From the IMG/VR virus record IMGVR_UViG_3300020433_000009, positions 1-52,170 of that record: DNA of 52,170 bases; one strand, 5' to 3'. Below are positions 33,524-52,170 of this stretch, in pieces (the stretch's first letter is position 1; each line of letters begins with the position of its first letter). This stretch comes from a virus. The notes below the pieces were generated by a model, which worked only from the letters and a program-made list of their open reading frames with translations, was not told the origin of the DNA and made no database searches. The position numbers were made by a program, and so were the translations under genes.

Positions 33524-36500
33524 TTATACAGGATTAACGTTGAATCTAATTCTTACATAATAAAGAGTATTCGCACTAAGCGTCACAGCATTAGGAAGAG
33601 TGTAAGATAATTTATTTACACTGTTGTCTCTAGACTCATGTACTATATTAGTAAATGTAGCTGCTGGTGAAAACTGCCAGAATGTTGATGTATGTTGGAA
33701 ACCACTCTTCACTTGTGCAGTCAAAGCTGTAACAGTAGGATTAAATGCAGGTGTGATAGTTTGAATATCTGGTTGATCAACAAATGGAGTAGTGAATGTC
33801 GATGCATTTGAGTATGCACTTTGTAAACCATTCTGATCTCTGAACTTAACTTGAACTGAATACTGAGTATCAAATTCAAGAATTCCTACAGGCACTGTGA
33901 GACTAGTTTTGTTTGCACTATCTCCATTAAGATTTATATTATTAGTATCATAGACAGTTACGTTGTCACTAACTCTTCTAATTCTCCAGTAAGAAGAACT
34001 ATGTGTTGAGCCTGCATATTCTTGAACGAATGGAGATGTAGTAATAACTGGTTGTCTTGATAAAGTTTTAGTAGTGTCTGGATCTATGAATGGTGTAACT
34101 GTAGTTGGAGAAGATACGAACTCTGATTCATTAACAGTTAAAGTAGCAGATGTAGATGTTACAGAAGTTGCATTAGTGTTTGATAGAACACAACGGAATT
34201 GTTCTGATGGATTAGTTGGATATGTTGTTGCGGGTGTTGTATATGACGCTGAGTTTGCACCATTAATAGCACTCCAATTTGCTCCACTATCAGTTGAGAT
34301 CTGCCACTGATAAGAAATAACTCCACTTGTAATAGCAGCAGTTACACTGAAACTTGCAGTTTGTCCCTCAATAACAGCAGTGTTTTGAGGTTGTTGACTG
34401 ATAGTGATAACACGTAATACAGTCTGTAATGCAAAACCAGATGTTATAGGTGCAGCTGATCCAACAAGAGATACGATACATTGGAAACGATCGTCATTAT
34501 CATCAGCAAATACTAAAGTTCCAGTTGTATATGAGTCTGTTGTTCCACCTGTACCAGTAGAAACATTTGCATAGTTTGCACCACCATCATCAGATTTTTG
34601 CCACTGGTATGTTGGAGTTCCACTACTTGTTGATGCTGATACAGTGAAGTTACTGACTGAACCTTCATTAGATGTTACATTAGATGGTTGTGCTGTGATA
34701 GCAAATGTCCTTTCTACAGTCAGAGTTACAGCATTTGTATATGCTTTGACAGTTGCACCAACTGCATCTAACTCACAACGATACTGATCATTATGATCAT
34801 CTGCGTATGTTGTGCCAGCAGTTGTATAACTTGAATTTGTTGCACCACCTATGTTTGACCAGTTGACTCCTCCATCATCTGATTTCTGCCATTGGAAACT
34901 TACGTTTGGACTATGATCTGATTGACTTTGAGCATTTTCTGATCCTCCTCCACCGCCAGGCGTTGTCCATGATTCCGTTTCATATGATGAAGATGCAGCA
35001 TTACCACCAATGATTGACATGGTAACTGATCCAGTACAACTAAATGTTGCTGTAGCTGTTTCATTCACAGTTGCATCCTGTGGTTGATTTACAACATTAA
35101 CAGTTACTGTCTCTACCTGTAAGGTAACAGCATTTGATGCTATCTGTGTAGCACCTGTACAAGACAATACACAACGGAATTGATTTGCATCGTAGGATGC
35201 ATCCAATACAGGAGTTACATAAGTTGCTGTAGTTCCACCAGTTCCTGCAGATACATTATTCCAAGAAGCACCATTTGTATTTGATATCTGCCATTGGTAT
35301 GTTATATCGTTAGCATCATTATCTGAAGTATTTGCTACAACATTGAATGTTCTTGTTCCACCAACAGCACCTGTAGTTCCTTGAGGTTGAGTGGTAATAT
35401 TAATTGTTCTAGTTACGAACAATCTAGCAGCAGTTGAGATAACTTCAGATGCACCAGTGCAATTTAATTTAACTCTATAATAATCTCCATAATCTGCATC
35501 ATATGTTGTGGCTCCAGTAGTATAACTTGATGTGGTAGCACTACCTATATTAGTGTATGTTGCACCATCACCATTTTCTGATTTCTCCCATTGGTAGGAT
35601 AATGCTGCTCCATCTGCTACTGATGCAGTTACATTAAATGTACCAGCTGCAGGTGCAATAGGTGTTGCATTGCTTGGTTCAGCACTTATAGTAATCACTC
35701 TGAATACTGTTAGTGTGACAGCATTAGTATAAGCTGATGCCACTGCAGTGCTAGTATCTAACTTACAACGGAACTGATATGAATTTTTTCCATAGTCATC
35801 ATTGACTGTCAATGTATTACTTGTCACGTTAGTATAACCACTACCTTCAGATAGGGCAGACCAGTTAGCACCACTGTCAGTAGATACTTCCCATTCATAT
35901 GTAATGGTAGATCCGTCAGAACTGATAGCTGATATAGGACCAAATGTAGCACTTGTACCAGCACCTGCTTCTATACTTGCGTTACTAGGTTGTCCTGTAA
36001 CTGTAATAAGAACACCAGTTCCTGCAGTCGTAAAACTGAATGCACGAGTATTGTTTGTTATTTGCTCAACTACAGTAAAGTTAAAGGTTGTATCAATATA
36101 ATCTGATGTAACTGTACCACTCAATATACCCGTTGTGCTGTTTAATGAAAGACCTGAAGCACCAAGTGCGTCACCTGTAGTTGTATAAAGTTCGTAGGTC
36201 GGTTCATTAGCAAATGTCAGACCAGATAAACCAAGGTCAATACTAACACTAGCACCATTTGCAAATGGACTTCCAGTTATTGCACCAGAAGCTTGTGCCC
36301 ATGTTACTGTAGTATCAACATAAGGGAAAAATGCTCCTCTCTTTTTAGTTAGAACATCAGTGTTAGCATCATATTTAAAGTCCACTCCACTATCTACTGG
36401 ATAGTATTTTACATTATCATATACACTGGTGCCCTGTGCTTCTTGAGTATCAGTTTGAGATCTTAGTTGAGTAGAGGTAAAGACAACACCATCTGTACTT

Positions 36501-39013
36501 TCATGTGTTATTGCTTCCGAATCAATCAGTGCAAGATAGTTATTTGATCCACCACCAGTGGCACTAGCACTAGCATTACTAGCTGACTGAACGGTAATCG
36601 TATTATTGATTGCATCCTCAGCAGTTATGTTTAACCATCCACCTTGAGATAATCCAGAAATGTCTGTACCACCAAGAACAACACCACCTGAACTAGGATC
36701 AGTTTGAACTGTGATAGTTCCATTCATTGAGTTGTGATTAGAACACTGATAGTAATATGTGCCTGCAGTATTTGGTGTCCATGATACTGTTGCAGTTCCT
36801 GTAGATCCTTGTCCAGTAGCAGCTGGTGTACTTACTTGATTGCCAGTTCCAGTTCCCTGTACACTCTTAAGATAAAATGGATGAGAACCACTGACACCTG
36901 ATAAGTTAAAATTGATAGTGTCTCCAACATATACAGTAACACCTACATTGTTTCCACCTACTCCACCATTTCTATCAGTTCCACTTAGTGTGTAATACGA
37001 AAATGAAGGAGCTGTTGTTGTTATATTGTATGTTACAGCGTTACCACTACCACCTTCTGTTGATCCTGTAGTTCTTAACTGAACCTTTTTACCAACATTA
37101 CCAATGAAGTGACTGCTATCAGATGAGTTAAAGGAGATTTTTATATTCTGACTTCCACTGGTAACCTCGTATGGGTTAGTTGGTAGTTTTCTTTCTTCGA
37201 TACTATTTGTTGGATAGAATTGAGTTACACCCTTTGTTATATCTCCAGTGTTACCAGTTCCCCTGATAAATTGTTTTCCTAGTGATGCAAAGTTATTAGT
37301 TGTTAGAGTATATCCATTCTTTCCAGCCCAACATGCCATGATACCTGCAACTAGAGGACATGAGAATGATGTACCACCAATAGTTGCATAGTTTGCAGTG
37401 CTATTATATGGTGTGTTTGCAGTCCAGTCATACTTAGGAAGACGAATATTTTTACCAGGTGCACAAACAGTAGCACCAGCACCATAGTTAGAAAAGTCTG
37501 CCCATCTATCATTATAGTCTGTAGCACCTACAGAAATCTTTGCTTGATCTACATCTACATTGTTTACACCACCAGTTGTGTTATCAGCATAACCAGCAGT
37601 TCTTGCTCCAACTACAACCTTAGACATCAAAGGTCCTGCAAAATTATCACCAGAGTCTTTAAATCCATTACCTGCAGATCTACAAATCAATATCCTTTGA
37701 GAAGCAGCTATGGTTCCTTCGATATCATCTAATACTTCTTCATCAGTTCCTGTGTCATCACCTGCATCATTTAGTTCAACATATGGATAAGACTGACTTG
37801 GAAGTCCTGAACCTATGGAAGTATTAACAATAGCTGGTCTGGTATTACCTTTATAGTTTGCATTACTACTATCATTATGATCTATGACTGCCTGATATGC
37901 ATTTAATATAGCAGTATATGTACCACTACCTGAAGAGTTCAAGCATTTGAGTGCATATATTTTTGCATTAGATGCAAATCCACAGGTTCTACCTGCAGCT
38001 AAGATAGCACAATAAGTACCGTGATCATTATCATCTTCGTTGTTAGTACCATAATCACCAGAGTAATGTGGTAATTGGTACACTCTATAGTTCTGTTGTT
38101 CGGCAGTTCCGTTTAGATCAGTAACAAAATCTGGATCATACAATTCAGGATGTAGAGCTGCGTTGTTACCTGTTGGTCTACTTGCACCACGAACTCCGCT
38201 ATCTAAGATATAGATATCAACTCCATCACCAGTGGCACCACTATTACTGTACTCACCATTCATATACTGTCTGTCTTGTTTGGTCAGTCTGTCTAAATGC
38301 CAAAAGTCATGTACGTTAAGTGTCCCATATCTGTTAGGAGAAGTATCATATCTTCCCATTCCAGCGTGGTTTAGGCAATAGTAAAATAAAACTGAAGGTG
38401 TAGATGAACCAAATACTACAGTTGTGTTAGCACCTGATTGTCCTGCAACTCCGTTATAGGTTACACCTGTTGAAAATTCTACACCGCCAGTTGTATATGA
38501 TCCGTCAGGTGTAGTAGAAAATCTTATAGGATGGGTTGCATTACTAGGATGTGATTGATCAAAAATATATGTCGCACCTTGTAAGAAACCACTGAAGTAT
38601 GAAGTGACGACAAAAGTAACATTATCACTTGAGAATGAATATACGTTTGATCCACTGCCTTGCCAGTTAGATGCAACTTGAACATATATTGTGTTCGTGC
38701 TTGATGCAGTAATATTTCTTGTATTCGTAGTAGCTTGTGAAACTACCTCCCCACTAGTCTGTACCTCTTCTCCCTGAGCAGACACAGCTCCAGAAGAATA
38801 TGCTAGTTTATCCCAAAACGCTTTCTTAACAACATTAAGTGCATTGAGTTTCTCTAGTAAACCATTCTCATATTGTTCTGGACATTCCAATGAAAATGTC
38901 TTAAAACTTCTATATGCTTTATAATTGGTTAGGAAACCGTATAATTTTAGGATGGCAGCACATGCAGAATCCAAACTATAATTACCAGAAACCCTGATGA
39001 CTACCTTCTTCAT
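33524..39013 (-). CDS. Giant virion-type protein: subtilisin, cupredoxins, Ig and FN3 repeats
   Basis: I start at ATG 39013 (MKKVVIRVSGN), giving about 1,829 residues; a TTG at 39025 is also in frame. Domains: an I9-like propeptide region (1-70); cupredoxin-like domain 1 (about 100-230) with His161, Cys213, His216, Met219; a subtilisin S8 domain (about 255-590) with Asp271 (YILDSGV), His331 (DHGTYC), oxyanion Asn449 (SAGNG) and Ser549 (GGTSFSCP); cupredoxin-like domain 2 (about 660-770) with His710, Cys756, His759, Met762; a variable region; six Ig-like repeats with YQWQ and FRC motifs (about 34120-36010 in DNA); two FN3-like repeats. The protease triad and both type-1 copper sets appear complete. 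It lies upstream of gp13 with a late-promoter element, so a virion or tail-surface role is inferred. Confidence 0.88.
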   Translation of the reverse strand: MKKVVIRVSGNYSLDSACAAILKLYGFLTNYKAYRSFKTFSLECPEQYENGLLEKLNALNVVKKAFWDKLAYSSGAVSAQGEEVQTSGEVVSQATTNTRNITASSTNTIYVQVASNWQGSGSNVYSFSSDNVTFVVTSYFSGFLQGATYIFDQSHPSNATHPIRFSTTPDGSYTTGGVEFSTGVTYNGVAGQSGANTTVVFGSSTPSVLFYYCLNHAGMGRYDTSPNRYGTLNVHDFWHLDRLTKQDRQYMNGEYSNSGATGDGVDIYILDSGVRGASRPTGNNAALHPELYDPDFVTDLNGTAEQQNYRVYQLPHYSGDYGTNNEDDNDHGTYCAILAAGRTCGFASNAKIYALKCLNSSGSGTYTAILNAYQAVIDHNDSSNANYKGNTRPAIVNTSIGSGLPSQSYPYVELNDAGDDTGTDEEVLDDIEGTIAASQRILICRSAGNGFKDSGDNFAGPLMSKVVVGARTAGYADNTTGGVNNVDVDQAKISVGATDYNDRWADFSNYGAGATVCAPGKNIRLPKYDWTANTPYNSTANYATIGGTSFSCPLVAGIMACWAGKNGYTLTTNNFASLGKQFIRGTGNTGDITKGVTQFYPTNSIEERKLPTNPYEVTSGSQNIKISFNSSDSSHFIGNVGKKVQLRTTGSTEGGSGNAVTYNITTTAPSFSYYTLSGTDRNGGVGGNNVGVTVYVGDTINFNLSGVSGSHPFYLKSVQGTGTGNQVSTPAATGQGSTGTATVSWTPNTAGTYYYQCSNHNSMNGTITVQTDPSSGGVVLGGTDISGLSQGGWLNITAEDAINNTITVQSASNASASATGGGSNNYLALIDSEAITHESTDGVVFTSTQLRSQTDTQEAQGTSVYDNVKYYPVDSGVDFKYDANTDVLTKKRGAFFPYVDTTVTWAQASGAITGSPFANGASVSIDLGLSGLTFANEPTYELYTTTGDALGASGLSLNSTTGILSGTVTSDYIDTTFNFTVVEQITNNTRAFSFTTAGTGVLITVTGQPSNASIEAGAGTSATFGPISAISSDGSTITYEWEVSTDSGANWSALSEGSGYTNVTSNTLTVNDDYGKNSYQFRCKLDTSTAVASAYTNAVTLTVFRVITISAEPSNATPIAPAAGTFNVTASVADGAALSYQWEKSENGDGATYTNIGSATTSSYTTGATTYDADYGDYYRVKLNCTGASEVISTAARLFVTRTINITTQPQGTTGAVGGTRTFNVVANTSDNDANDITYQWQISNTNGASWNNVSAGTGGTTATYVTPVLDASYDANQFRCVLSCTGATQIASNAVTLQVETVTVNVVNQPQDATVNETATATFSCTGSVTMSIIGGNAASSSYETESWTTPGGGGGSENAQSQSDHSPNVSFQWQKSDDGGVNWSNIGGATNSSYTTAGTTYADDHNDQYRCELDAVGATVKAYTNAVTLTVERTFAITAQPSNVTSNEGSVSNFTVSASTSSGTPTYQWQKSDDGGANYANVSTGTGGTTDSYTTGTLVFADDNDDRFQCIVSLVGSAAPITSGFALQTVLRVITISQQPQNTAVIEGQTASFSVTAAITSGVISYQWQISTDSGANWSAINGANSASYTTPATTYPTNPSEQFRCVLSNTNATSVTSTSATLTVNESEFVSSPTTVTPFIDPDTTKTLSRQPVITTSPFVQEYAGSTHSSSYWRIRRVSDNVTVYDTNNINLNGDSANKTSLTVPVGILEFDTQYSVQVKFRDQNGLQSAYSNASTFTTPFVDQPDIQTITPAFNPTVTALTAQVKSGFQHTSTFWQFSPAATFTNIVHESRDNSVNKLSYTLPNAVTLSANTLYYVRIRFNVNPV

Positions 39014-39040
39014 CCCATCTCGCAATTAGTCCTTCAGGTT

Positions 39041-39048: not shown

Positions 39049-39388
39049 CCTTTTTATTCATATCTACTTGTTTAAGTAATCTTGCAATTTCTGTCTCGTC
39101 AACAACCTTATCCATTCTTTCTACTGGTTTACAGAACTTTAAATCGTGACTTGCATCAAATACATATTTCTGTCTACAATGAGTTCTATCTCTTTCCACA
39201 ATAATATGATAAGATTTACCATATACATTCTCTGTAAATCCTATTGCTACGATTGCCCTATTCTCATAAAGATCACCAACTTTATAAGGACAAGTCTCTG
39301 CAGTGCCATCAAAAGGAATATAGAACTGTGTAGAATTGACATGTTCTAACTTCCTAGCTTCACTAGATGGTATGTTTTTTCGATGCAT
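39044..39388 (-). CDS. Hypothetical protein
   Basis: A 114-residue protein with beta-strand pattern (RAIVAIGFTENVYGKSYHII, KYVFDASHDLKFCKPVER) and a helical charged C-terminus (DETEIARLLKQVDMNKK). Three Cys and several His are present but not in a known motif. It shares one base with the stop/start of the upstream 2OG-like gene (TAATG). Function unknown. Confidence 0.7.
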   Translation of the reverse strand: MHRKNIPSSEARKLEHVNSTQFYIPFDGTAETCPYKVGDLYENRAIVAIGFTENVYGKSYHIIVERDRTHCRQKYVFDASHDLKFCKPVERMDKVVDETEIARLLKQVDMNKKA

Positions 39389-39981
39389 TACTTTAACTCC
39401 AAGTTACATAGATCGTCTTGTTCACCAAAGGTACCAGAAAGAAATACATTAAATGATATACTATATCTCATTTGATCCAAATCATTTTTAGCAGTCTGAT
39501 GTTTTAGATAACTGGGAAACAATAGTAGGTCTCCTTTATTTGGATTGATAATGCAATCAGTTACATTATAAAAATTTGGTTGAGCTACATCAGGAATAAT
39601 CATCTTTGGTACTGGATCAAAAAACCTGATGGGAGGATAATTTATATCTTGAGGATAATATGCCCCAGATATAAAACTATTAGGATGTGAGTGAGTATGA
39701 ATATATTCATTGGATGCACACCCTGTAGCCCACATAGTACTTATGCGAGGAAATATGTTTTTATATTCAAAAACATTAGCGAATGAATATTTTACTGCTT
39801 CTAGAAACATCCCAGATAATGTCCAGAACCTCTCATCCTGATGCAAATTAGTCTTAGAAATAGAGAAACCATCTCCATCTTCTAAAACTTTTTTAATATC
39901 CTCTTGTACTTTTTGATGATCAATACCAATATCACAGACCACTAGGGTCTGTGGAAACATACTGAATACTGTTTTAATCAC
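39388..39981 (-). CDS. 2OG-Fe(II) oxygenase-like protein 1 of the tail cluster
   Basis: 197 residues from GTG 39981, or 190 from ATG 39960 (MFPQTLVV), which matches the usual FPTP-like start of the family; both remain possible. IHTHSHPNSFISGAYYPQDI carries the proximal His motif and LLLFPSYLKHQTAKND then RYSISFNV carries the distal His and the Arg. The pattern is that of the 2OG-FeII_Oxy_5 family, in which HxHP occurs at the position of the classic HxD. Substrate unknown. The GTG overlaps the stop of the coiled-coil ORF. Confidence 0.72.
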   Translation of the reverse strand: MIKTVFSMFPQTLVVCDIGIDHQKVQEDIKKVLEDGDGFSISKTNLHQDERFWTLSGMFLEAVKYSFANVFEYKNIFPRISTMWATGCASNEYIHTHSHPNSFISGAYYPQDINYPPIRFFDPVPKMIIPDVAQPNFYNVTDCIINPNKGDLLLFPSYLKHQTAKNDLDQMRYSISFNVFLSGTFGEQDDLCNLELK

Positions 39982-40153
39982 CTACTTTAACTTCACCTTC
40001 TTCTTTTTGAGACATAGTTAGTGCTTCTATTGCACCCTCTAATCTCAATACCTGTTCTTTTCTTTGACTGAGTTGTTTTTCAAGTTCAACAATAGTAGCC
40101 TTTTGCTCTACCAATTGACCATTAAACTCTTTGATCATGTCTGGGATTTCCAT
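39974..40153 (-). CDS. Small coiled-coil protein
   Basis: A 59-codon ORF read from the DNA. MEIPDMIKEFNGQLVEQK, then IVELEKQLSQRKEQVLRLEG show a heptad pattern for one long helix, with a charged tail. It lies between two 2OG-like genes and overlaps the next by 8 bases. There is no strong Shine-Dalgarno. It may form a small trimeric or dimeric coiled coil. Confidence 0.65.
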   Translation of the reverse strand: MEIPDMIKEFNGQLVEQKATIVELEKQLSQRKEQVLRLEGAIEALTMSQKEEGEVKVGD

Positions 40154-40177
40154 AGTTTAAAATAATAACTGTTATAT

Positions 40178-40816
40178 TTAGAAGTGCTCTGCACCATCGA
40201 CTATACCATAGTCTAACACAATATTGCCAGAAATGCTAACTCGTGGTATTCCAGAGAACCCCTTGAATGGATATACTACATGGTTTACCCATGCAGGAAA
40301 TAATATTACTTGACCTTCTATACCTTTTTCAACATTGATTAATTTATTAAACATAGAGAATGGATCTGAGAATTCTGTAAATCCATTCTTTACATGTTGT
40401 GGTAGAACGTCAGGTTCTAATTTACATTGATCCTCATGTGTATATGGCACACTCATGTATACAACAAAACTAAACAACCCAGTATGTTGATGTAAAGGTT
40501 GATAAGAATTTGAATACATTTCATTTCTCCAAAGATCCACCAACTTAAATGGTGTCCTAGGTGGAGTGTTCTGTCTGATCTGATGAAATACAGGAGCAGT
40601 TGCACATTCTCTAGCAAAAGCCTCTGATAAACAAATTATATAATCCTCAAACAAAGGTGCTTTACTTATTCCTAGTTTGTATTCGTCTGGGAATACTCCA
40701 ACTAATTTATCTCCATGGTGACCACCATTCTTTAAATTATTCAGTTCTTCAAAAATATCCTCTGGAAGTTGACTGTACATCAAACAAGGATAATCAAAAT
40801 GATAATTTATATTCAT
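40178..40816 (-). CDS. 2OG-Fe(II) oxygenase-like protein 2 of the tail cluster
   Basis: A 212-residue protein. YQPLHQHTGLFSFVVYMSVP holds the proximal HxH motif, and GQVILFPAWVNHVVYPF followed by GIPRVSISGNI holds the distal His and the 2OG-binding Arg. It diverges strongly from its neighbours in the N-terminal half. It overlaps the next upstream gene by four bases. Substrate unknown. Confidence 0.7.
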   Translation of the reverse strand: MNINYHFDYPCLMYSQLPEDIFEELNNLKNGGHHGDKLVGVFPDEYKLGISKAPLFEDYIICLSEAFARECATAPVFHQIRQNTPPRTPFKLVDLWRNEMYSNSYQPLHQHTGLFSFVVYMSVPYTHEDQCKLEPDVLPQHVKNGFTEFSDPFSMFNKLINVEKGIEGQVILFPAWVNHVVYPFKGFSGIPRVSISGNIVLDYGIVDGAEHF

Positions 40817-41526
40817 GTAATCATCTTATAGTTTGGTTTTATAGATTTATCTGGATGCTCATCCCATCCTTCTTTAGTTAGGATGTCCATTGCAATTGTT
40901 ATTCTTTCAAATGGATGATCATGTTTATCTGTCCAATGCACTAAATGGTTTGGAAACATAAAAATTTCACCTGGTTTATTTGCAAACCCCTTAACTACTT
41001 GTTTGTTAAATGGGTTAGAATAATATGTACCAGTTCTATTTGCAGCGATGGTTAGGTGTGCACCTATAAAACTATCTTTATAAGAACTATGCCAATGAGG
41101 TAATATTTGTTCTCCAGATCTCATTACGTTTGCCCAACACTGAGAGTAGTATTGTTCCTCTCTATGGTTGAACCCATCTACTTGTCCGCAACCAATATCC
41201 CACAATCCTTCATCATGCATGTATTGCCCCATGGCTGCACAACCTCTGTTGATTGTATCTCTTAATGTATTGACCCATGGCTCATCCCATTCCCATACAC
41301 TAAACGCACTAAATTTTGCAGTGAGACTATCTCCTCCAAGACCAGTGCCACCATCATTAGTGACATCTTTGAAGTCATGTATTATCTCTTTTTCTCTTCT
41401 TAGAATACTTTCTCCTATTTCTTTACACTCGTCTCTAGTAAATACTGTTTCAGTATAGAAAGGAAAGTTCCAATTAGGTGCAAAAGGAGTTCTAGGAAAC
41501 TCAGATTTCCATTCAATAATAGGCAT
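40813..41526 (-). CDS. 2OG-Fe(II) oxygenase-like protein 3 of the tail cluster
   Basis: A 237-residue protein. ILPHWHSSYKDSFIGAHLTI gives the proximal His pattern and GEIFMFPNHLVHWTDKHDHP with RITIAMDI the distal half. A long N-terminal part (ECKEIGESILRREKEII, KFSAFSVWEWDEPWVNTLRD) is specific to it. It shares one base with the next upstream gene and overlaps the downstream gene by four. Substrate unknown. Confidence 0.66.
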   Translation of the reverse strand: MPIIEWKSEFPRTPFAPNWNFPFYTETVFTRDECKEIGESILRREKEIIHDFKDVTNDGGTGLGGDSLTAKFSAFSVWEWDEPWVNTLRDTINRGCAAMGQYMHDEGLWDIGCGQVDGFNHREEQYYSQCWANVMRSGEQILPHWHSSYKDSFIGAHLTIAANRTGTYYSNPFNKQVVKGFANKPGEIFMFPNHLVHWTDKHDHPFERITIAMDILTKEGWDEHPDKSIKPNYKMIT

Positions 41527-42164
41527 TATTCAGCTTGATATAAATTCCAAGTAGCTAGTTTTGCTTGAGATGATGCTGCATTGCAAGGTCCTATAGGAAT
41601 ACAATTAAAACTAATTGACCATCTCGAAAATTCTTGTACATGGTTCAACGTACCATGCTTCAACCAACTAGGAAATAATAATAACTTTCCAGCTTCAGGT
41701 ATCATCCCCCATTGTTCAGGAGTTTTTTGTGGATCCACACTGTATAGTTTTATCATACCCTCTCGTCTTTTATCTACAGGATCACAGAACATAGTGGGTG
41801 CACCATCAGTCAGATAGAATACACCACTGATATATGACATTGGGTGATGATGTATCTCATGTTTACCTGCCTTGAAACCAGGCGACAGGTTAGCCCACAT
41901 GATACTAATATCTAATTTTTCACATTCATATTCATAATGTGATCTATATTGCTCTACGCAATCCTCAAAGAAATCTGTTATCTCTTTATACCTAGGATCT
42001 TTATGCAAATCATGTCGAGTTTGCCAAACTCTTTCTGGATGTTCGGGTTGTGCTTGATTTACATTGATATAATCTTCTTCTTCCAGATTAGATATAATCT
42101 GTTTAAAATCAAACTCCGCTTTAAACACATGTACAGGTGTCGGAAAGATATTGTATATGTCCAT
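41526..42164 (-). CDS. 2OG-Fe(II) oxygenase-like protein 4 of the tail cluster
   Basis: A 212-residue member of the 2OG-FeII_Oxy_5 type. It starts DIYNIFPTPVHVF, the classic family N-terminus; IMWANLSPGFKAGKHEIHHH then PMSYISGVFYLTD holds the proximal His residues (His105/107), and GKLLLFPSWLKHGT (His170) with RWSISFNC (Arg181) completes the site. The best family match of the cluster. Substrate unknown; phage copies are often near tail-fibre genes. Confidence 0.8.
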   Translation of the reverse strand: MDIYNIFPTPVHVFKAEFDFKQIISNLEEEDYINVNQAQPEHPERVWQTRHDLHKDPRYKEITDFFEDCVEQYRSHYEYECEKLDISIMWANLSPGFKAGKHEIHHHPMSYISGVFYLTDGAPTMFCDPVDKRREGMIKLYSVDPQKTPEQWGMIPEAGKLLLFPSWLKHGTLNHVQEFSRWSISFNCIPIGPCNAASSQAKLATWNLYQAE

Positions 42165-42165
42165 A

Positions 42166-42930
42166 TTAATATGATATAGAAAGTGTCATTCTTGGTGTGT
42201 TAAGATACTTACCTTTTTCCATAAAGGCAGTATGGAAACATGCTCCTTCATACAGATTAAATCTATTGAATTTATGTTCATCTAGATGGTATCTGATATA
42301 TTTAGTGTTCTCCACAATGGGTTGATATACGTCCATATCCATTCTTTGAGGTGTGAAAGCATACCTTGATTTTCTGTACATACATGTACTAGGATGAAAA
42401 CTTTCCTCTCCTGTCTCCTTCAATCTATAGAACGATGTCCCCGTATCACCTTCTATCTCATCATCAAAGTTTAAACATATATTACCTGCAAGAGAAGAGT
42501 CATCACAGTGTGGCCAATTAGATTGTTTGAATACGTTTCTGTCACCAAATATTCTCTGAAAGGAGTAATTAATAAACCTTCCACCATATCCAAATTCTAC
42601 TTGTGCTATCTTTTTAATTGTTTCTTCTAATTCTTTTATCTGAAAAGAAAGATAAGTCTGATAACCAGGATAGAAACCTGCTTTGGCATCCCATGCAGTA
42701 GGTTTCATAGATGGGTTTGGTATAAACTGTTGTGGTATATCCATTAAAAAATCACGTATCTTTTCTGGATACGCGAAAAAATTGTCAATAGACACAATAC
42801 GATTTTTGTGATTACCAACATCGTAAGTGGTTACATTTATACCACTGTTTACTTCAAATATTCTATCGTCAAATACCTTAAGAGGAAGAGTTGATTGCTC
42901 CTGGTCTGGGGACTGATTCATCTTTTTCAC
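42166..42930 (-). CDS. 2OG-Fe(II) oxygenase-like protein 5 of the tail cluster
   Basis: A 254-residue protein of the same subtype as the two cassette genes at 13213-14516: VSIDNFFAYPEKIRDFLM, then WPHCDDSSLAGNICLN with canonical His141/Asp143, GDTGTSFYRLKETG, and ACFHTAF (His233) with RMTLSISY (Arg247). All ligands are present. It overlaps the upstream CxxC gene by 53 bases; the internal Met4 would still leave most of the overlap. Substrate unknown (DUF6445-like by memory). Confidence 0.76.
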   Translation of the reverse strand: MKKMNQSPDQEQSTLPLKVFDDRIFEVNSGINVTTYDVGNHKNRIVSIDNFFAYPEKIRDFLMDIPQQFIPNPSMKPTAWDAKAGFYPGYQTYLSFQIKELEETIKKIAQVEFGYGGRFINYSFQRIFGDRNVFKQSNWPHCDDSSLAGNICLNFDDEIEGDTGTSFYRLKETGEESFHPSTCMYRKSRYAFTPQRMDMDVYQPIVENTKYIRYHLDEHKFNRFNLYEGACFHTAFMEKGKYLNTPRMTLSISY

Positions 42931-43239: not shown

Positions 43240-44373
43240 TTAACCACCACTAATCTTTGTCACTTCACAGTATCCCTGATTTGCAGGTGTTGCTGCATTT
43301 CCATTATGGTTTGCACCACTTTGTCCAAGCTTGTTGATACCGTTATTGATGGATCCTCCACCTTGTCCACCATGATATGAGGAGTATTGTACTTCACAAC
43401 CTCCACCGTTGTAGCCACCGCCACCTCCACCTGAGATGAAACAGTTACCGTGACCACCGCCACCGCCACCAAATCCACCGAAGGAATCACTTTGGTTTGC
43501 TGTGCCACCTAGAGAACCATCCATATAAGATTGTCCAGCTCTAGTTTCACTCCATGTTGGGTTTTGTGAATAACTAAATCCACCTCCATAGAAACCACCA
43601 CCAGGATTACCTCTGTTAGATCCACTCAATGCTCTATCGCCAGCATATCCTCCAGTACCACCTCTGCCTGCACGACCATCTAGTCCATTTATAGAAGCAC
43701 TACCATCTTTTCCACAAGCACCTGTAGTAGTATTTTGAGTTCTATCTCCACAACCTTGACTGTTAAATGATCCATTACTAGCACCGCCACCACCTGCAGC
43801 AATTAAAAGAATGTCGGATACATTGTTTCCACTTGCCTTGACGACATAAGTTCCACCGCCACCACCGCAGTCGCAATCCTCATAGTTAGGACCTACACCA
43901 CCAGAACCACATAATACATTAATAACTTCTCCTTGTTCTAGGAAAAAATCTCCTTGTATACGAGCTCCCCCTCCACCTGTGTAGTTATTATTAGTTCCAC
44001 CCTGTGCACCATATGCATTAAATCTATACCATCCAGATGAGGGAACTGACCAAGCTTGTCTACCACCACTAAGTGAAATGTTTCCGCTAAGTGGACTACT
44101 GTTATAGTAAGAACCTACAGATGTAGGAGCTGTTCTACTTGGACTACTGAAGAGAGAATAAAAAGTTGCAGTGAAAGGTGATAATACACCTCCTATAGCA
44201 TGCCAAAGACCATTAGCATAAACTTCTAGTTGACTTATAGAATTATTGTATCTAAGATCTCCCTCACGTGGTGAACTAGGTCTTTGACCTGTTGAACCAA
44301 CAGGAAGTTTTACCGCCCCAGTCGTATTGAATGACGGATCTCCAGAAATGTTACCAGTATTAAGAGTTGACAT
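43240..44373 (-). CDS. Glycine-rich tail-fibre adhesin
   Basis: A 377-residue protein. The N-terminal ~65 residues are the shared fibre module (VKLPVGSTGQRPSSP, GDLRYNNSISQLEVY, LWHAIGG). The remainder has many poly-Gly runs (GGGGARIQG, DCDCGGGGGTYVV, IAAGGGGASNG, GGFGGGGGGHGN, ISGGGGGGYNGGG), a composition like glycine-rich receptor-binding proteins and the polyglycine adhesin tips of other T4-like phages. It ends AATPANQGYCEVTKISGG. Role in host recognition is inferred. AAGG precedes the ATG. Confidence 0.8.
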   Translation of the reverse strand: MSTLNTGNISGDPSFNTTGAVKLPVGSTGQRPSSPREGDLRYNNSISQLEVYANGLWHAIGGVLSPFTATFYSLFSSPSRTAPTSVGSYYNSSPLSGNISLSGGRQAWSVPSSGWYRFNAYGAQGGTNNNYTGGGGARIQGDFFLEQGEVINVLCGSGGVGPNYEDCDCGGGGGTYVVKASGNNVSDILLIAAGGGGASNGSFNSQGCGDRTQNTTTGACGKDGSASINGLDGRAGRGGTGGYAGDRALSGSNRGNPGGGFYGGGFSYSQNPTWSETRAGQSYMDGSLGGTANQSDSFGGFGGGGGGHGNCFISGGGGGGYNGGGCEVQYSSYHGGQGGGSINNGINKLGQSGANHNGNAATPANQGYCEVTKISGG

Positions 44374-44712: not shown

Positions 44713-45627
44713 TTAACATTCAAAGTATACGTGTGCGTTCATAATTCTGTGGTTCTCACTAGAATACTCAAATCCACATGAGGGGTCACATGTTGATCCA
44801 GTAGACCATCCTTGGTATCCACCATGTGAATTCCATTGCCAACTGAAACTTCTACCACAGTTATTACCTGGACCGTAATTAGTATCAGTCCAAGAAGAAG
44901 TATTGTTGTCACTATTAGATGCAGAACCTGCACCCCAGAAAGATCCATACCTAGCCCAGTTCATATTTGGTCTCCCTCCAGGACCATTACAATGGTTCCA
45001 TTGGAAACTTGCTGCAGTGGTTGCGACAAAGGTATAAGAGTCGTTAACACATTGTCTGTTAACCAACATTTTATTATTTAACCAGTTTCCACCTATAAGA
45101 GAGTTAACCCAATCAGAAGGTGCAGCTGCAATATTTCCATTATCATTTAGATATGAAGAATCTAACTTGTCGTAATTATATCCTGCATATGCCCATTTGT
45201 TTTGATAACTTTCTCTACCTCTCTGTACTAACACCCATGCTTTATTAGAAGCAACAGGAGAACTGAAATTTGTATAGCATTGTATAGCAAAGTTTGCACC
45301 ATTTGGTTGATACCAATAATCACCACTGGTTGATATACCAATAGATCTTAGTTCTTGTCCATTAGCAACAGGATTACTTTCTGACTCACCTAGACCACCA
45401 GACTTAGATGCTTCTAACCATCTCTGTCCAGTCCAAAATCTTAACATTTTGTTTGTGGTGTCATAAACAAGTTCTCCTTCACTAACACCGCTAGATGGAA
45501 GGCTTCCAAATGCAAACTGCGGAAGTCTAAATCTGTTAGCAACATACAACCCACCATTTCCCTCAAGGGTAGCAGCAGTAGTACCTGCAAGATTTTGTAG
45601 AGTGTCTATTCTTAAAATACTAGCCAT
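44713..45627 (-). CDS. Tail fibre with fibrinogen-like C-terminal domain (divergent)
   Basis: A 304-residue protein. N-terminal fibre module: FRLPQFAFGSLPSSG, GELVYDTTNKMLRFW, QRWLEAS. The C-terminal ~210 residues begin GDYWYQPNGANFAIQCYTNF and SNKAWVLVQRGRES, resembling the opening of fibrinogen-related domains (WY, a Cys, then GGWxxxQRR). The end is Cys-rich (CGRSFSWQWNSHGG, STCDPSCGFEY, VYFEC), with possible disulfides. It is a paralogue in outline of the fibre at 45872-46819 but has lost the DND and WWYxxC signatures. A host-binding role is inferred. Confidence 0.72.
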   Translation of the reverse strand: MASILRIDTLQNLAGTTAATLEGNGGLYVANRFRLPQFAFGSLPSSGVSEGELVYDTTNKMLRFWTGQRWLEASKSGGLGESESNPVANGQELRSIGISTSGDYWYQPNGANFAIQCYTNFSSPVASNKAWVLVQRGRESYQNKWAYAGYNYDKLDSSYLNDNGNIAAAPSDWVNSLIGGNWLNNKMLVNRQCVNDSYTFVATTAASFQWNHCNGPGGRPNMNWARYGSFWGAGSASNSDNNTSSWTDTNYGPGNNCGRSFSWQWNSHGGYQGWSTGSTCDPSCGFEYSSENHRIMNAHVYFEC

Positions 45628-45629
45628 GA

Positions 45630-45875
45630 TTAAGCGTCCTCAGTTACAGTTATATCAGTCCATGTAACACTGTACATGTCACCTTGTTGTTTAAGCATAT
45701 CATCTCTCCAGTCATTCCATTCAGATTCATCTAAAGAATTATCTTCTCCATTGATTTCTTTCTGCCATGTAACACTGTGTAAAAATGTATTTGAATCATC
45801 ATAAAATTTCATGATAAATTTTAAGTTACCATGCTGATCAGTAGTAGTTCTATTTTTCTTAATAATACACTTCAT
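45630..45875 (-). CDS. Small protein between fibre genes
   Basis: An 81-residue protein: KCIIKKNRTTTDQHGN, KFIMKFYDDSNTFLHSVTWQ, acidic EINGEDNSLDESEWNDWRDD, and YSVTWTDITVTED. Strand-rich and acidic, of no known family. It follows the fibrinogen-like fibre with a four-base overlap and lies two bases before the next fibre, so it may be an assembly factor. Confidence 0.62.
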   Translation of the reverse strand: MKCIIKKNRTTTDQHGNLKFIMKFYDDSNTFLHSVTWQKEINGEDNSLDESEWNDWRDDMLKQQGDMYSVTWTDITVTEDA

Positions 45876-46819
45876 TTTACATACATAGCTCCATAATTAT
45901 GATGGTCTCCACCAGAACTATACCAATAAGGTGCATCCTGATAAGGACCGCCAGCAAACATGTTTCCTGACCAACAAGCATTGTACCACCATGGATTTGC
46001 ATTATATAAGTTGGCACAGTTACCACCATATGTATCATTGTCATCATCGGTGGTAGTAAAGTTATAACCATATGAACCGTAGACAGTCCAATAATCATAT
46101 TGTCCAGATCCAGGCGATCCTAATTCTACGACCTCACCACTAGCTCCAGATGCTGCAAAGCTATTGACCCATGCACCATTCCAGTTCCAATATTCACGTT
46201 TACTATGACCACCAGTATTACCTAATTCCATAGCACTAGTAGCTACAAATTGAGCAACTTGTCCAGTGCCAGGATTATCAGCAATAATAGAAGACCACAT
46301 TGGAAGACCCATGCACATATTAAATGCACCTAAGTTCTTTCCATCCCCATACTCTCCTCTGTAGTTAACCTGATATGCAGTTCCATTAGCATAGGTTAAA
46401 CCAGTCATTCCTTGAGTTCCCCTTCTATTACATAGAACTAGAACCCAACCACCACTACGATATACTGTATCAATCCAGACGTTAGTAGAAACACCATTAA
46501 TATCTAACCAATACCAACCTGTTGTGGCATTTGGATTTATTGTAAGAAGATCAGTAGATTTAGCTAGAGGTGCATCTGATCTAGTACCAGTTGCAGCATT
46601 AGCAAGAGCCACCCAACCATCTTGAATATAAGTTTCTAATTGACCAATAGTTGTATTATAATACAATTCACCATTTGCAGGAGAACTAGGTCTATTAGAT
46701 GTAGTCCCTTGTGGAATTTTTAATCTTCCATCGACTTGAAAAGTATGACCACTAGGAACCCTTACAGTATTACTGTAGGTCGAAAATCCTTGCAAATCAT
46801 GTAACGATAAAGTACTCAT
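45872..46819 (-). CDS. Tail fibre with fibrinogen-like (FReD) C-terminal domain
   Basis: A 315-residue protein. Fibre module at residues 32-72: LKIPQGTTSNRPSSP, GELYYNTTIGQLETY, GWVALA. The C-terminal domain (about 98-315) matches the fibrinogen C-terminal fold: GWYWLDINGVSTNVWI, then SGGWVLVLCNRRG (122-134), then TTDDDNDTYGGNCANLY (256-272, the calcium-type DxDND site followed by Cys268) and PWWYNACWSGNMFAG (276-290, Cys282), ending YGAMYVK. These pieces are in the order found in ficolin-like lectins. Such a domain would bind acetylated sugars or other glycans on the host surface; that is inference. Confidence 0.78.
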   Translation of the reverse strand: MSTLSLHDLQGFSTYSNTVRVPSGHTFQVDGRLKIPQGTTSNRPSSPANGELYYNTTIGQLETYIQDGWVALANAATGTRSDAPLAKSTDLLTINPNATTGWYWLDINGVSTNVWIDTVYRSGGWVLVLCNRRGTQGMTGLTYANGTAYQVNYRGEYGDGKNLGAFNMCMGLPMWSSIIADNPGTGQVAQFVATSAMELGNTGGHSKREYWNWNGAWVNSFAASGASGEVVELGSPGSGQYDYWTVYGSYGYNFTTTDDDNDTYGGNCANLYNANPWWYNACWSGNMFAGGPYQDAPYWYSSGGDHHNYGAMYVK

Positions 46820-46823
46820 CTTT

Positions 46824-49800
46824 CTATACTACACTCCATGTACCACCATCATTTACAGTTATGGTTACGCCATTATTTATAGTGATTGGACCAGCGGTCA
46901 TACAATTATCTGAGGAAGTAATTGTAATGCTTTCACTACATGTATTTCTATTTCTCTTGAATACACCGTAACTATCTATCCACTGTTTATCACCTGATGC
47001 TCTTAGAACTGTGCTCTTCTGTCCAGATGATAAACTCTCACTTGCATTCAAGTTAATACCATTTAACTGGTTAACTTGTAAACCATATGTTGATTGTGTT
47101 GTATCACCACCTGAGTAGAATGTCCAACAACCACTAGAATCAAGAGATCCAATACCACCGTCACTATCATTTCTATAGAAGAAATCAGTACCAGTTCTCA
47201 TGTATGTAGCAGCATTATTAGCAAAGTAGAATCTTGGTTGACCCTCAGAACTGCTTCTCCATCCGTTAATTTGAGCAGAGAAATATGGTAGGTTAGTTGC
47301 ACTATAACCATCAAGTAAGTCTGCGTTTAGGTTAGTAACAACTGTTGTTGAAGCAACTACAAATGGTGCAGTTCCTTGTGCAACTCTTGATTTAACCTGT
47401 CCAAAGAAGTGGAATGTAGGATCATTATAACGATACTTAGCAACTCTACTATCTACACCATTGTCTCTTCTGTAGAATGTGATATCATCACCTTGCTCAG
47501 AACCAAATGAGGCTGGAGAATTATCTCCATTGTATGCAATACCACCACCATAGACATTTGATTGTCCAATGTATAAGTAACCTGTACCTTGGTTATTACC
47601 GTATGCTTCAAAACCACACTGATAAGAGTCACCTGCGTGTGCTCTAACGTATGTGTTAGCAGATCTACTAGTGGTTCCAAAGATGGCATCTCCAGTAGAC
47701 TCTATTGAGGTAGCTGGATCGCTATCACCAATACCTATACGTCCGTTACGGAAGTATACGTTGTTGTATGATAGATATGTACCATTCCATCCAAAGGAGT
47801 TGGTGTCATTACCAAATCTTATAAAACCTGAGTTTGAATCATTTTTACCCTTAATGGATAGAGCATTAGTGGTTGCCTTACCTAGAGTAATACCATTGCT
47901 ATCTGCAAGATCAAGTATTGAAGTACCTGTGTTTGCAAACGTACCTTGGTCAGCAGTTAAATCAGAGATTGTTAAGTTACCTGATGCATCTCTACGTGCA
48001 ATTGTATTTGCAGTAGCAGTTGTTGCTTGTGTAAATCCATCTAGGTAATGAGCGTCTAGCTGAGATGATGAGCCATCGTTACCTGCATGCCATATAGTAT
48101 TACCATTGACAGTTAAGTCACCTGCATTAAATCTTAGAGTACCATTTCCATCGTTACTGTTACCACCAGAGACGATCATTTGAACGTCATAGTTTGCGGC
48201 TGAACCACTAGAACGGAAATCTAATGTTGGAGTTGTAGAGACTGATGATTTACCAATCTGTAATTTAGCACCAGCTGCAGCATCTGTCATGCTAACCAGT
48301 GTGCTAGAACCACTGTTAATTAAATTAGATGATGATACAGTCCACTTAGTGCCAGGATTAGGACCGAAGACATATATGTTTGCGTTAGTATTGCTACCAA
48401 CAAAGTTAATTGTACCTGTAACTAATGAATATATTTCACCAGATGTATGAGTAAGTTCTTGAACACCGTTAGCATCAACTACGATTGAACCGATGTTATT
48501 TGTTGCACCAACATCTGAGTAGATAGTAAATGTTCCACCGTTAGTAATATTACCACCAGCACCAGTAGCACAGTGGAAGTTAGGAATGTAAAGTGTATAT
48601 TTTAAACCACTATCATTAAGATAGAAATTCTCAAATACAATCTTGTTCTGACCAAGAACTTCTGGTAAGAACATGTCACCGATAGGATGAATTCCTGCAC
48701 GAGTGTCACCTACGTTATAACCAGACTGATACCATAGTCCTTGTGAACCATCTAATTTATCAGCATCTAATCCACTGCCAGAACCATCATTAAATCCAGA
48801 CCAGATCTTATACCAGTTACCATATACAGCGTTACCACCAGAGTTACCTCTTAACCAAAGATTATCATTATCTGTGAATGCAAGTTGTATTGCAGCACTA
48901 CCAGTTGCTTCACGTCTGTATGTAAGAATACCATGTGTAGTTCCACCATCTGTTAGACCAGTAGCAGCGTTATTTCTTAGTGCAGCACCAAGACCATTTG
49001 CAGCTTGTGCAGGAGATGGGTTTGATGTAAGTGATGAGGTCTCGTTAAAGATTCTGTTTGCGGTGTCAGCAGTACCAGATATAGAAATTGCATATATTTG
49101 GTTTGCAAGTCTTGCAGCTGGTAATGTTCCTTGAGATAGGTTAGATGCGTTTGTATAGAAACCACCGTCGTTACCATCTAGTTTGTCAGCATTAAGTTCT
49201 GAACCAGGACCTTGGTCAATTCTTACTTGTCCATCATTGTCAATGATAAATCCACCTTCATCTTGATTACCAAGTGCTTGGTTTGCAACATCTTTTCTAA
49301 ATCTGAATACACCGTAGTTACCAAATGTTGTTGCATTAGGAGTTAAGTTATCACCCTTTCTAATATCAATTTCGATGTTACCAAATGCACGGTTGATAGT
49401 TCCCTTAACAGCAGTCAATGCACCAGAACTACCACCACCAAGTTCAGATGGTATTACAACACTAAATCCAGCAGTATATCCTGTACCAGAGTCAGTTACA
49501 GTAGCAGATGTGATGACACCACCTGAAACAACATATGTTGCTCTTGCAACACCATCAGCAGAAACGCTAACGTTACCACCCTCTAGTGGTAAGTTTTGAT
49601 AAGTTCCATCTGTGTATCCTGTACCACCGTTTGTAATTGTGATGCTGTCAATATAAGAACTATCAGTTACAGATCCAGTAACTAATATCGCATCTTGTGT
49701 AGTAGGTCTAATTGACTGTAATGCATACTCCCATGATGAATCACCACGTAAGAATGTAAAGGAGTTTGCAGTACCCTTACTTGCCATCCTTTCTGGGTCA

Positions 49801-52170
49801 ATAGTACCTGCAACAATATTAGAAGCATCAATGTTTGTTGATGTTAACTGTGTCCAGTTAGCAGCTGTAGATGCTGAAGTATTGATAACTCTGGATAGAT
49901 CAATAATTCTCTTACGATTGAAGTTACCAGATGTGGTGCCAGAAGTCGTTGCAGTTACTGAATACTGATTAGAGTTGATTAAAGATATTGTATAGAAACC
50001 ATCAGCAGCTGTACCACTTGTAAAGTCTAAGTAAACAAGAGATGCATTAGATAGATTATGTGTATTTTCAGTGACAGTAATGGTAGTGCCAGTCTGACTG
50101 TAAGTACCTGTTCCTAGATTTGCAAGAGCTTGATCAAGAATAAAGTCACCTGCATCAAACTTAATAGCATTTGCAATATTAATATTAACTCTACCTTCAA
50201 TCTGAGCAGCAACTACTGCGTTATTGGATGCACCGCCAGGTGATGTTTGTACTTGTACAGTTGGTTGATTATAGTATCCTTTACCTGGATTAGTAATGGT
50301 AACTTTAGTAACTACACCACTTGTTACATTAGCAGTAGCAGCAGCTTGAACACCATTACTGGTATCATCAGGTGCAGATATTGTTAGTGCAAAATCACCA
50401 GCGTATTGTGAACCACCATCACTGATAATAAAGTTAAAGATTAAACCATCATTGTAGTTTGTTACAGTACCACGAGCAGTAGTAGAACTACCTGCAATAA
50501 TATCACCGTTAGTAAATTGGAATGCACTGTTAGGTGTAAATGCTAAGAACTGACTTTCAAGATCATTTTCAAGAATATATGAAACAGCAGTACCTGCAGT
50601 CTCAAATGAATGTGTACCTGAACCTTGACCACTTAAAGGAACAGCCTGACCATTAGTTGCATTAGATGTAGTTGTTGCAAGCTTGATTGTGTTGTCATCA
50701 ACCTTGATAACATAGTAAACAGTTGCGGTTGATAATCCACCAATTGCTGTAGTACCCGCAGTGTATGTTAATTGATCTCCAGTTGAAACTCCATGATTTG
50801 TAATGGTGATCTGATTGTTAGATGTATTAACAGATGCAGGTGCAACACTAAATGTAGTAGAAGTTGTTTCAATAGCAATGTCACCAGCATTTGCGTCTTC
50901 AATTGCTAGTCTTTCTGCTGTAGATGCAACAGAAGTAATATTGAATGGACGTAATGCAGGTATCTGATCAATATTGATCTTACCATTTGATGTCAACTGA
51001 ACAAGGGCAGATGGAACTGCGTTTGTTGAGAATGGTTGGTTTAGATATGGTCCTAGGTTGTTTGAAATATAATCTCTAACAGATGCCTGTGTAGGTAACA
51101 GTGCATCTGATGCGAATGTTCCACCTAAGTTGTCATCATCAGAGAAACCAGTAATCGTGATAGCACCACCAACGATCTTAATAGATGATAGTTCAGAGAT
51201 ACTAACAGTACCAACGAAACTAATAGCACCAGTTCTGTTGAAGATAGTAACAAAATTACCAACCTTGAAATCACCAAACTCGTTAGTACCTGATGTATAA
51301 ACTTGTCCAAAGTTTTGTTCTGCAGCTTCAAATGCAGACCCTAAACCAAATCCACCGTTCTGTGGTAGAGCAGCATAGGTATTACCTGATCCAGAGAATT
51401 CCCAAGTGTGTGATGATGAGTTACATACAGATGGTCTATGGAATCTAATTGTTTTACCTACAAGACCATTTAAGTTACCAGCAGCATAACTGTATACAGT
51501 TCCATTGCTACTATCAGTGTAACTCATGGATATGTTAGTTGTTATCTTAGCAACAATCTGTGAGCCAGGAGCACCACTAATAACATTAGTTTCTAAGATA
51601 ATAGTTTCAACAGCAGGGTTGGTTAACGTTGTACCATCAATCTTAATAATATAATCTTCAACAGGAATGTTAGTTAGAGTTGTACCAGAAACCTGAATAA
51701 CTTGTCTACCTGTTGGAACTCCATTTCCATCAACATCATTTACAACACTATCAATAACACCAACGTCAAATGAGTATGCTTCTGCCCTGAATCCAGTTGC
51801 ACGAAGAGAGAACGTTCCGAAGTTGGATGCAGAGTTGGTTACAGAAGCATAACCACCAGACTGTACAAGAATACCATCTTGACAGAAGATAGCAAACACA
51901 GAAACTAACTGTGTGTAACCATCGTTAGTAACGTTATACGCAGTACCACCAAAACATATAATGGTGAATGCGTTTGCAACCATTGACTTACCTTGTGGGT
52001 CAAACTGTGCAACTGTATTTCCTTGTGCGTTCTGTTTTAAACCAGGTCTAGGTACGTTAGGTGTAGCAACCTTAGCACCATCAATCTCACAACCAGAACC
52101 ACCAAGGAATGATATAAGTGAAGAGTTCTGAATGTAAGGAGATGCTTCAATAACTGGAAGATCTAGGAAT
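46824..52170 (-). CDS. Giant tail-fibre protein, 5' end outside the window
   Basis: The frame stays open from the stop at 46824 to the right window edge; a Met at 51983 is internal, because upstream codons keep coding (SPYIQNSSLISFLGGSG, then QGNTVAQFDPQGKSM). At least 1,782 residues. It contains beta-rich GxGY repeats (TITNPGKGYY, TITNGGTGY, VTDSGTGY), four or more DA-x-LDG motifs (LNADKLDG, LDADKLDG, LDAHYLDG, LNADLLDG), an IGIGDSDP-type shaft segment and a C-terminus AGPITINNGVTITVNDGG typical of marine phage fibres. It probably forms the long distal fibre or an adhesin shaft. Confidence 0.85.
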   Translation of the reverse strand, partial: FLDLPVIEASPYIQNSSLISFLGGSGCEIDGAKVATPNVPRPGLKQNAQGNTVAQFDPQGKSMVANAFTIICFGGTAYNVTNDGYTQLVSVFAIFCQDGILVQSGGYASVTNSASNFGTFSLRATGFRAEAYSFDVGVIDSVVNDVDGNGVPTGRQVIQVSGTTLTNIPVEDYIIKIDGTTLTNPAVETIILETNVISGAPGSQIVAKITTNISMSYTDSSNGTVYSYAAGNLNGLVGKTIRFHRPSVCNSSSHTWEFSGSGNTYAALPQNGGFGLGSAFEAAEQNFGQVYTSGTNEFGDFKVGNFVTIFNRTGAISFVGTVSISELSSIKIVGGAITITGFSDDDNLGGTFASDALLPTQASVRDYISNNLGPYLNQPFSTNAVPSALVQLTSNGKINIDQIPALRPFNITSVASTAERLAIEDANAGDIAIETTSTTFSVAPASVNTSNNQITITNHGVSTGDQLTYTAGTTAIGGLSTATVYYVIKVDDNTIKLATTTSNATNGQAVPLSGQGSGTHSFETAGTAVSYILENDLESQFLAFTPNSAFQFTNGDIIAGSSTTARGTVTNYNDGLIFNFIISDGGSQYAGDFALTISAPDDTSNGVQAAATANVTSGVVTKVTITNPGKGYYNQPTVQVQTSPGGASNNAVVAAQIEGRVNINIANAIKFDAGDFILDQALANLGTGTYSQTGTTITVTENTHNLSNASLVYLDFTSGTAADGFYTISLINSNQYSVTATTSGTTSGNFNRKRIIDLSRVINTSASTAANWTQLTSTNIDASNIVAGTIDPERMASKGTANSFTFLRGDSSWEYALQSIRPTTQDAILVTGSVTDSSYIDSITITNGGTGYTDGTYQNLPLEGGNVSVSADGVARATYVVSGGVITSATVTDSGTGYTAGFSVVIPSELGGGSSGALTAVKGTINRAFGNIEIDIRKGDNLTPNATTFGNYGVFRFRKDVANQALGNQDEGGFIIDNDGQVRIDQGPGSELNADKLDGNDGGFYTNASNLSQGTLPAARLANQIYAISISGTADTANRIFNETSSLTSNPSPAQAANGLGAALRNNAATGLTDGGTTHGILTYRREATGSAAIQLAFTDNDNLWLRGNSGGNAVYGNWYKIWSGFNDGSGSGLDADKLDGSQGLWYQSGYNVGDTRAGIHPIGDMFLPEVLGQNKIVFENFYLNDSGLKYTLYIPNFHCATGAGGNITNGGTFTIYSDVGATNNIGSIVVDANGVQELTHTSGEIYSLVTGTINFVGSNTNANIYVFGPNPGTKWTVSSSNLINSGSSTLVSMTDAAAGAKLQIGKSSVSTTPTLDFRSSGSAANYDVQMIVSGGNSNDGNGTLRFNAGDLTVNGNTIWHAGNDGSSSQLDAHYLDGFTQATTATANTIARRDASGNLTISDLTADQGTFANTGTSILDLADSNGITLGKATTNALSIKGKNDSNSGFIRFGNDTNSFGWNGTYLSYNNVYFRNGRIGIGDSDPATSIESTGDAIFGTTSRSANTYVRAHAGDSYQCGFEAYGNNQGTGYLYIGQSNVYGGGIAYNGDNSPASFGSEQGDDITFYRRDNGVDSRVAKYRYNDPTFHFFGQVKSRVAQGTAPFVVASTTVVTNLNADLLDGYSATNLPYFSAQINGWRSSSEGQPRFYFANNAATYMRTGTDFFYRNDSDGGIGSLDSSGCWTFYSGGDTTQSTYGLQVNQLNGINLNASESLSSGQKSTVLRASGDKQWIDSYGVFKRNRNTCSESITITSSDNCMTAGPITINNGVTITVNDGGTWSVV

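Follow-up and report, generated by a model that had tools for sequence, protein, structure and literature searches.

The protein encoded at 45872–46819 on the minus strand of the window (the whole 52,170-nucleotide stretch analysed, positions 1 to 52,170 of IMG/VR virus record IMGVR_UViG_3300020433_000009) ends in a fibrinogen-related domain (FReD), identified by its sequence, by profile comparison and by its predicted fold. A sequence-only reading of this DNA had proposed that a phage fibre-type protein carries such a domain at its C-terminus; this core call was right, and the case for it is stronger than the sequence alone could tell. The protein probably serves as a short, modular fibre or adhesin in a T4-like cyanophage of Prochlorococcus type, and its FReD would form an exchangeable tip that binds the host surface via a Cys/Asp loop. 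The gene and its parts are:

45872..46819, minus strand: the whole gene, encoding a short protein of fibre type (315 amino acids) tipped by a FReD; an open reading frame from ATG to stop.
46565..46819, minus strand: residues 1–85, an N-terminal module common to cyanophage fibre-region proteins (phrog_1325 and phrog_24138).
45875..46564, minus strand: residues 86–315, the FReD, assigned from PF00147, the AlphaFold2 model, a PDB fold search and a 24-member viral family.
46418..46456, minus strand: SGGWVLVLCNRRG, residues 122–134, the GGW strand of the FReD (Gly123, Gly124 and Trp125 invariant, 24/24).
46013..46048, minus strand: DDDNDTYGGNCA, residues 258–269, the calcium-type loop (Asp260, Asp262) and the first C-terminal cysteine (Cys268), from conservation and FIBCD1 equivalents.
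45974..45994, minus strand: PWWYNAC, residues 276–282, with the second C-terminal cysteine (Cys282), followed by the invariant Trp283 (24/24).
45938..45943, minus strand: Tyr293-Gln294, at the position of the FIBCD1 acetyl-pocket pair Tyr431-Ala432 (HMMER alignment to ficolin-2).

From the N- to the C-terminus, the GGW strand is followed by the acidic loop with the first cysteine and then by the WWY run with the second, which is the order of a FReD. The sequence-only reading had reported three motifs in this order, and all three are present, its own listing having begun with the second; the three-motif match is far beyond chance. The Pfam family Fibrinogen_C (PF00147) matches the window protein at 24.7 bits, above the gathering score of 22, over residues 250–289 only, and a six-frame scan of the whole window detects the family at this locus alone (E 1.9e-6). 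Residues 90–128 match a bacterial domain already named by NCBIfam (GGGWT_bact, NF040941) at 21.3 bits, below the 30-bit cut-off; since this cut-off is passed by the homologues L008–L011 (37–41 bits), and likewise by L035, the window protein appears to be a divergent relative. A profile built from the viral family matches animal FReDs (ANGPTL6, ficolins, tenascins) at E-values down to 2e-11, with both halves of the domain aligning collinearly.

The viral family comprises 24 distinct sequences, the window protein and 23 relatives that are 33–98% identical to it, gathered from viral contigs by a single motif scan plus several scans for homologues. The motif scan, with a degenerate calcium/Cys/WW pattern, returned 11 stretches, four of which are spurious frames and the others FReDs. 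Three orthologues have the same length as the window protein (L003, L004 and L005, with 98%, 96% and 74% identity). Cys268, Cys282 and Trp283 are present in all 24 sequences, and the two cysteines may form a disulfide. Asp260 and Asp262, which stand 8 and 6 residues ahead of the first C-terminal cysteine and constitute a putative calcium site, are found in 21 of the 24, so that both the acidic site and the paired cysteines noticed in the sequence-only reading are confirmed as conserved features. The two aspartates are lost jointly in L010, L011 and L044; these three proteins keep both C-terminal cysteines despite missing the pair. Tyr272 is conserved in 22 and Tyr293 in 23 members, and the residue after Tyr293 is variable. 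The window protein lacks cysteines ahead of residue 130, and the 24 members have no cysteine column in that stretch, indicating that the N-terminal disulfide of animal FReDs is absent from the whole family. Cys130, within SGGWVLVLCNRRG, is a non-canonical FReD cysteine that occurs in three sequences only, the window protein and the two relatives closest to it, and Cys169 occurs in the same three; this co-occurrence is suggestive of a pairing between the two. Outside the window protein the Pfam model is also widely matched, by 20 of the 24 members in total at E<0.01.

The structure prediction and fold search which the sequence-only reading had put forward as a check recovered the fibrinogen fold. 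An AlphaFold2 model designated template-free, computed with the 24-sequence viral alignment as input, has a pLDDT of 81.8 and a pTM of 0.76; its lowest-confidence part within the domain is the calcium-loop region, residues 241–290, where the mean pLDDT is about 56–74 per block. The model has a Foldseek match at E 2.6e-8, and the best 50 Foldseek matches in the PDB are all FReD or intelectin chains. Alignment of the predicted structure with H-ficolin by VIA-align gives a Z-score of 17.2 with an rmsd of 3.0 over 197 residues, the matched range beginning at approximately residue 82.

FReDs also occur in cellular prokaryotes, and a genome scan found them in Bacteriovoracaceae, Myxococcales and others, with the signature C-x13-C-W. 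The best-domain scores of the viral profile are 82–126 bits for bacterial FReDs (at least 96 in 8 of 9), whereas the top-scoring animal PDB chain reaches 47, a comparison that is uneven, as the animals are represented by solved structures only and the bacterial set was preselected. The C-terminal cysteines are 14 positions apart in the phage domain and 13 apart in the animal chains compared, where C-x12-C is followed by His, Ala or Tyr; this is one detail in which the spacing departs from that of the animal domains. Given the bacterial scores and the C-x13-C-W signature, ‘bacterial/phage-type FReD’ describes the domain better than ‘ficolin-like’. An origin straight from animals is not favoured by the same scores.

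The bacterial GGGWT_bact-type FReDs (Bacteriovoracaceae, Myxococcales and Roizmanbacteria, loci L068–L076) match the phage domain over nearly its full length and share with it the cysteine spacing of 14, the proline ahead of the WWY run, the tryptophan after the second cysteine and, usually, the acidic loop. Unlike the phage domain, most of them retain the N-terminal YCDM cysteine; many are larger (up to 1193 amino acids), and the N-terminal module of the phage protein is missing from them. Animal FReDs (ficolins, tachylectin 5A, FIBCD1, ANGPTL2/6, tenascin) have the fold in common with the phage model (Z about 16–17), together with the GGW strand, the C-terminal cysteine pair, the Asp-x-Asp calcium-type site and a tyrosine four residues after the first cysteine, but they differ in possessing the N-terminal disulfide, in the cysteine spacing, and in the acetyl pocket, where the phage domain has Trp for His and Gln for Ala. 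The collagen-like stalk of ficolins is likewise lacking: no Gly-X-Y repeat precedes the FReD, and residues 1–85 form a phage fibre module instead. The likeness to animal ficolins that was originally noted holds for the predicted fold, while the kinship is closer to bacterial and phage FReDs. One further sequence, L067 (PBPE01000072.1), was considered as a cellular copy and rejected; although labelled as a Dehalococcoidia MAG, this contig is a cyanophage-type fibre locus, apparently mis-binned.

The FReD tip would most likely bind a host surface polysaccharide or another envelope component, through the loop region around the Cys268–Cys282 pair and the Asp260/Asp262 calcium-type site, as in ficolins, tachylectin 5A and FIBCD1. 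In FIBCD1, the calcium ligands Asp393 and Asp395, together with Cys401, are the equivalents of Asp260, Asp262 and Cys268, and the S1 acetyl pocket consists of Tyr405, His415, Tyr431, Ala432 and Trp443 (PMC3908420). Tyr405 and Tyr431 are kept in the window protein as Tyr272 and Tyr293, whereas His415 is replaced by Trp283 and Ala432 by Gln294; the fifth position, Trp443, has no clear alignment. According to the FIBCD1 study, residues other than alanine would fail to complete the acetyl pocket without blocking it (PMC3908420). Since glutamine takes the position of Ala432 in the window protein and the residue there varies across the family, acetyl binding should not be assumed, and the two changes in the pocket suggest that the ligand is probably another than that of ficolins, tachylectin 5A and FIBCD1. 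Glycan binding by the window FReD, as the sequence-only reading had it, is plausible for a domain whose acetyl pocket is conserved in part, and ‘lectin’ is a putative label.

Some FReDs bind proteins, as in fibrinogen gamma, the angiopoietins and tenascin, and the main rival to a glycan-reading tip is a tip whose ligand is likewise a protein, either one of the host surface or a further fibre protein. This is unlikely in our estimate, though the best placed of the alternatives: the protein-binding FReDs of ANGPTL6/2 and tenascin are among the best sequence matches and the alteration of the acetyl pocket is consistent with a protein ligand, but Tyr272, Trp283 and Tyr293 are nearly invariant in 24 divergent members, which fits a small-ligand pocket and could also be structural.

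Head, tail and neck genes of the T4 type are present on the contig, and gp23 shares 91% identity with its counterpart in Prochlorococcus phage P-HM2. The contig is a Eurybiavirus-like T4-type cyanophage, and the kinship of gp23 points to Prochlorococcus as the probable host. The FReD gene comes directly after the long tail fibre gene, at a locus that lies between that gene and the gp13/gp14 neck genes. Its fibre neighbours are:

46824..52169, minus strand: the long tail fibre protein encoded upstream, truncated where the window ends (phrog_5342 tail fiber, 1665.8 bits).
44713..45627, minus strand: a neighbouring short fibre of 304 amino acids (P0002) with the same kind of N-terminal module and a FReD-like N-terminal element only.
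43240..44373, minus strand: a third short fibre of 377 amino acids with the same kind of N-terminal module and a glycine-rich tip (phrog_22713, E 1.7e-27).

Residues 1–85 would serve the short fibres of this locus as a common module for docking and scaffolding, with residues 86–315 displayed at the tip. The N-terminal module has tblastn matches in 174 phage records, nearly all of them cyanophages, and mostly within residues 1–135. At the same locus of P-HM2, PHM2_097 shares residues 1–109 at 36% identity and then continues into an unrelated tip, in which the FReD profile detects nothing; the same module with an unrelated tip at the same locus identifies the FReD as an exchangeable tip. The short fibres of the Eurybiavirus phages P-HM1, P-HM2 and MED4-213 (gp23 90–91% identical) resemble the window protein in N-terminal module and locus; the tips of P-HM2_097 and MED4-213_23 are unrelated to its own. 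Swapping of such tips between related phages would shift the host range.

Within the window itself, the three adjacent genes at 45872, 44713 and 43240 combine such a module with different tips: a FReD, the N-terminal element of a FReD only, and a glycine-rich domain. The 44713 protein had been read as a divergent copy of the FReD, which holds only in part: the N-terminal element is shared (96.5% by hhalign against cyanophage GGGW domains, over 63 columns), but the protein has no Pfam or NCBIfam match, its C-terminal half is unmatched and its AlphaFold model is unusable (pLDDT 37.5). With this model and no meaningful PDB profile match, a full FReD is not claimed for P0002. Fusions of P0002-type domains occur in L061:1837-3672, where the partner is a GTA/phage head spike fibre domain, and in L054:3927-5657, where it is a glycine-rich domain. 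The 43240 fibre has a weak, sub-cut-off match to ALK_LTK_GRD and has the region of residues 16–149 in common with P0001 (E 2.3e-9).

The assignment as a tail fibre is based on the locus and the shared N-terminal module, and the place of the protein in the virion may be read differently. As a decoration of the neck, head or baseplate, it would aid non-specific attachment to particles or cells rather than forming a receptor-binding tip. We consider this quite improbable. It draws on the position of the locus, flanked by the long tail fibre on one side and the gp13/gp14 neck genes on the other, and on two PHROG matches of the N-terminal module, one weak (phrog_20787, a head-and-packaging virion protein) and one borderline (phrog_35784, a baseplate protein); however, the gene directly follows the long tail fibre, and variable C-terminal tips on a constant N-terminal module are the pattern of host-range fibres. 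Finally, convergence of a few Trp, Cys and Asp motifs on an unrelated fold is very strongly disfavoured, for although the Pfam match is short and the overall identity to animal FReDs is about 12–22%, both halves match collinearly, the template-free model superposes on FReDs at the Z-score given above, and the 24 viral members and bacterial relatives connect the halves.

Other genes of the region were observed in passing. A protein of 1833 amino acids by the neck genes (33524-39025, minus strand) has the subtilisin-like motifs DSGVRG, HGTYCA and GTSFSCP and Ig-like repeats; a search found no Pfam peptidase match for it, and its positional counterpart in P-HM2 carries a PF07686 annotation. Four putative 2OG-Fe(II) oxygenase genes (PF13759) lie in tandem at 39388-42164 on the minus strand, the one at 40813-41526 being just under the cut-off, and are adjoined by a DUF6445 gene (42166-42930).

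A survey of FReDs in phages, which had also been proposed in the sequence-only reading, yielded the 24 aligned viral members and, in addition, GGGWT domains in the cultured cyanophages S-CAM4 (YP_009320538) and S-8S29 (WLW36873), both above the cut-off and annotated as hypothetical. A domain-level tblastn search of 50,697 phage records with the tip of the window protein gave no match even at E 1. The proteins of S-CAM4, S-8S29 and roseophage CRP-810 resemble the window protein in that they occupy the same type of locus after the tail fibre and have an N-terminal fibre module, and in S-CAM4 the oxygenase and neck genes come next, as in the window; their tips, unlike the rest, have no tblastn similarity to that of the window protein. 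The GGGW match in CRP-810 is below the cut-off, and the proteins of this group are annotated as hypothetical or not at all. In Roseobacter phage CRP-810 the protein is a 565-amino-acid open frame (L065:2950-4647), for which the deposited annotation begins a shorter gene at 3784. At L008:5976-7739 a fibre beside a FReD gene has a glycine-rich domain fused to a GGGW/COLFI-like domain, so that this phage has two neighbouring tips of FReD type.

A ‘fibrinogen-like coiled coil protein’ has been listed among the host-recognition genes of marine metaviromic islands (PMC3909814), and a ‘fibrinogen protein’ is restricted to subgroups of roseophages (PMC12629253). Our literature search, of limited coverage, found FReD tips in cyanophages described nowhere, an absence which is no proof. 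The family of swappable FReD tips is largely unannotated in phages.

The wider interpretation, which is offered tentatively and at somewhat less than even confidence, is that a phage family of FReD lectins, derived from or shared with bacterial FReDs, is widespread among marine and other aquatic T4-like phages as an exchangeable tip for receptor binding, a tip in which a calcium-braced Tyr/Trp/Tyr pocket would read the O-antigen or capsule of the host. The fold of animal ficolins is employed here by viruses of bacteria, in proteins whose relatives are called hypothetical in current phage annotation; if the interpretation is true, these phages would recognise their hosts by means of the very fold on which animals rely for the innate recognition of bacteria. 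Little is known about the receptors that phages of Prochlorococcus and Synechococcus use, and the assignment of a known fold to an exchangeable tip, with a predicted site for the ligand, provides a concrete, testable candidate for receptor binding in marine cyanophages.
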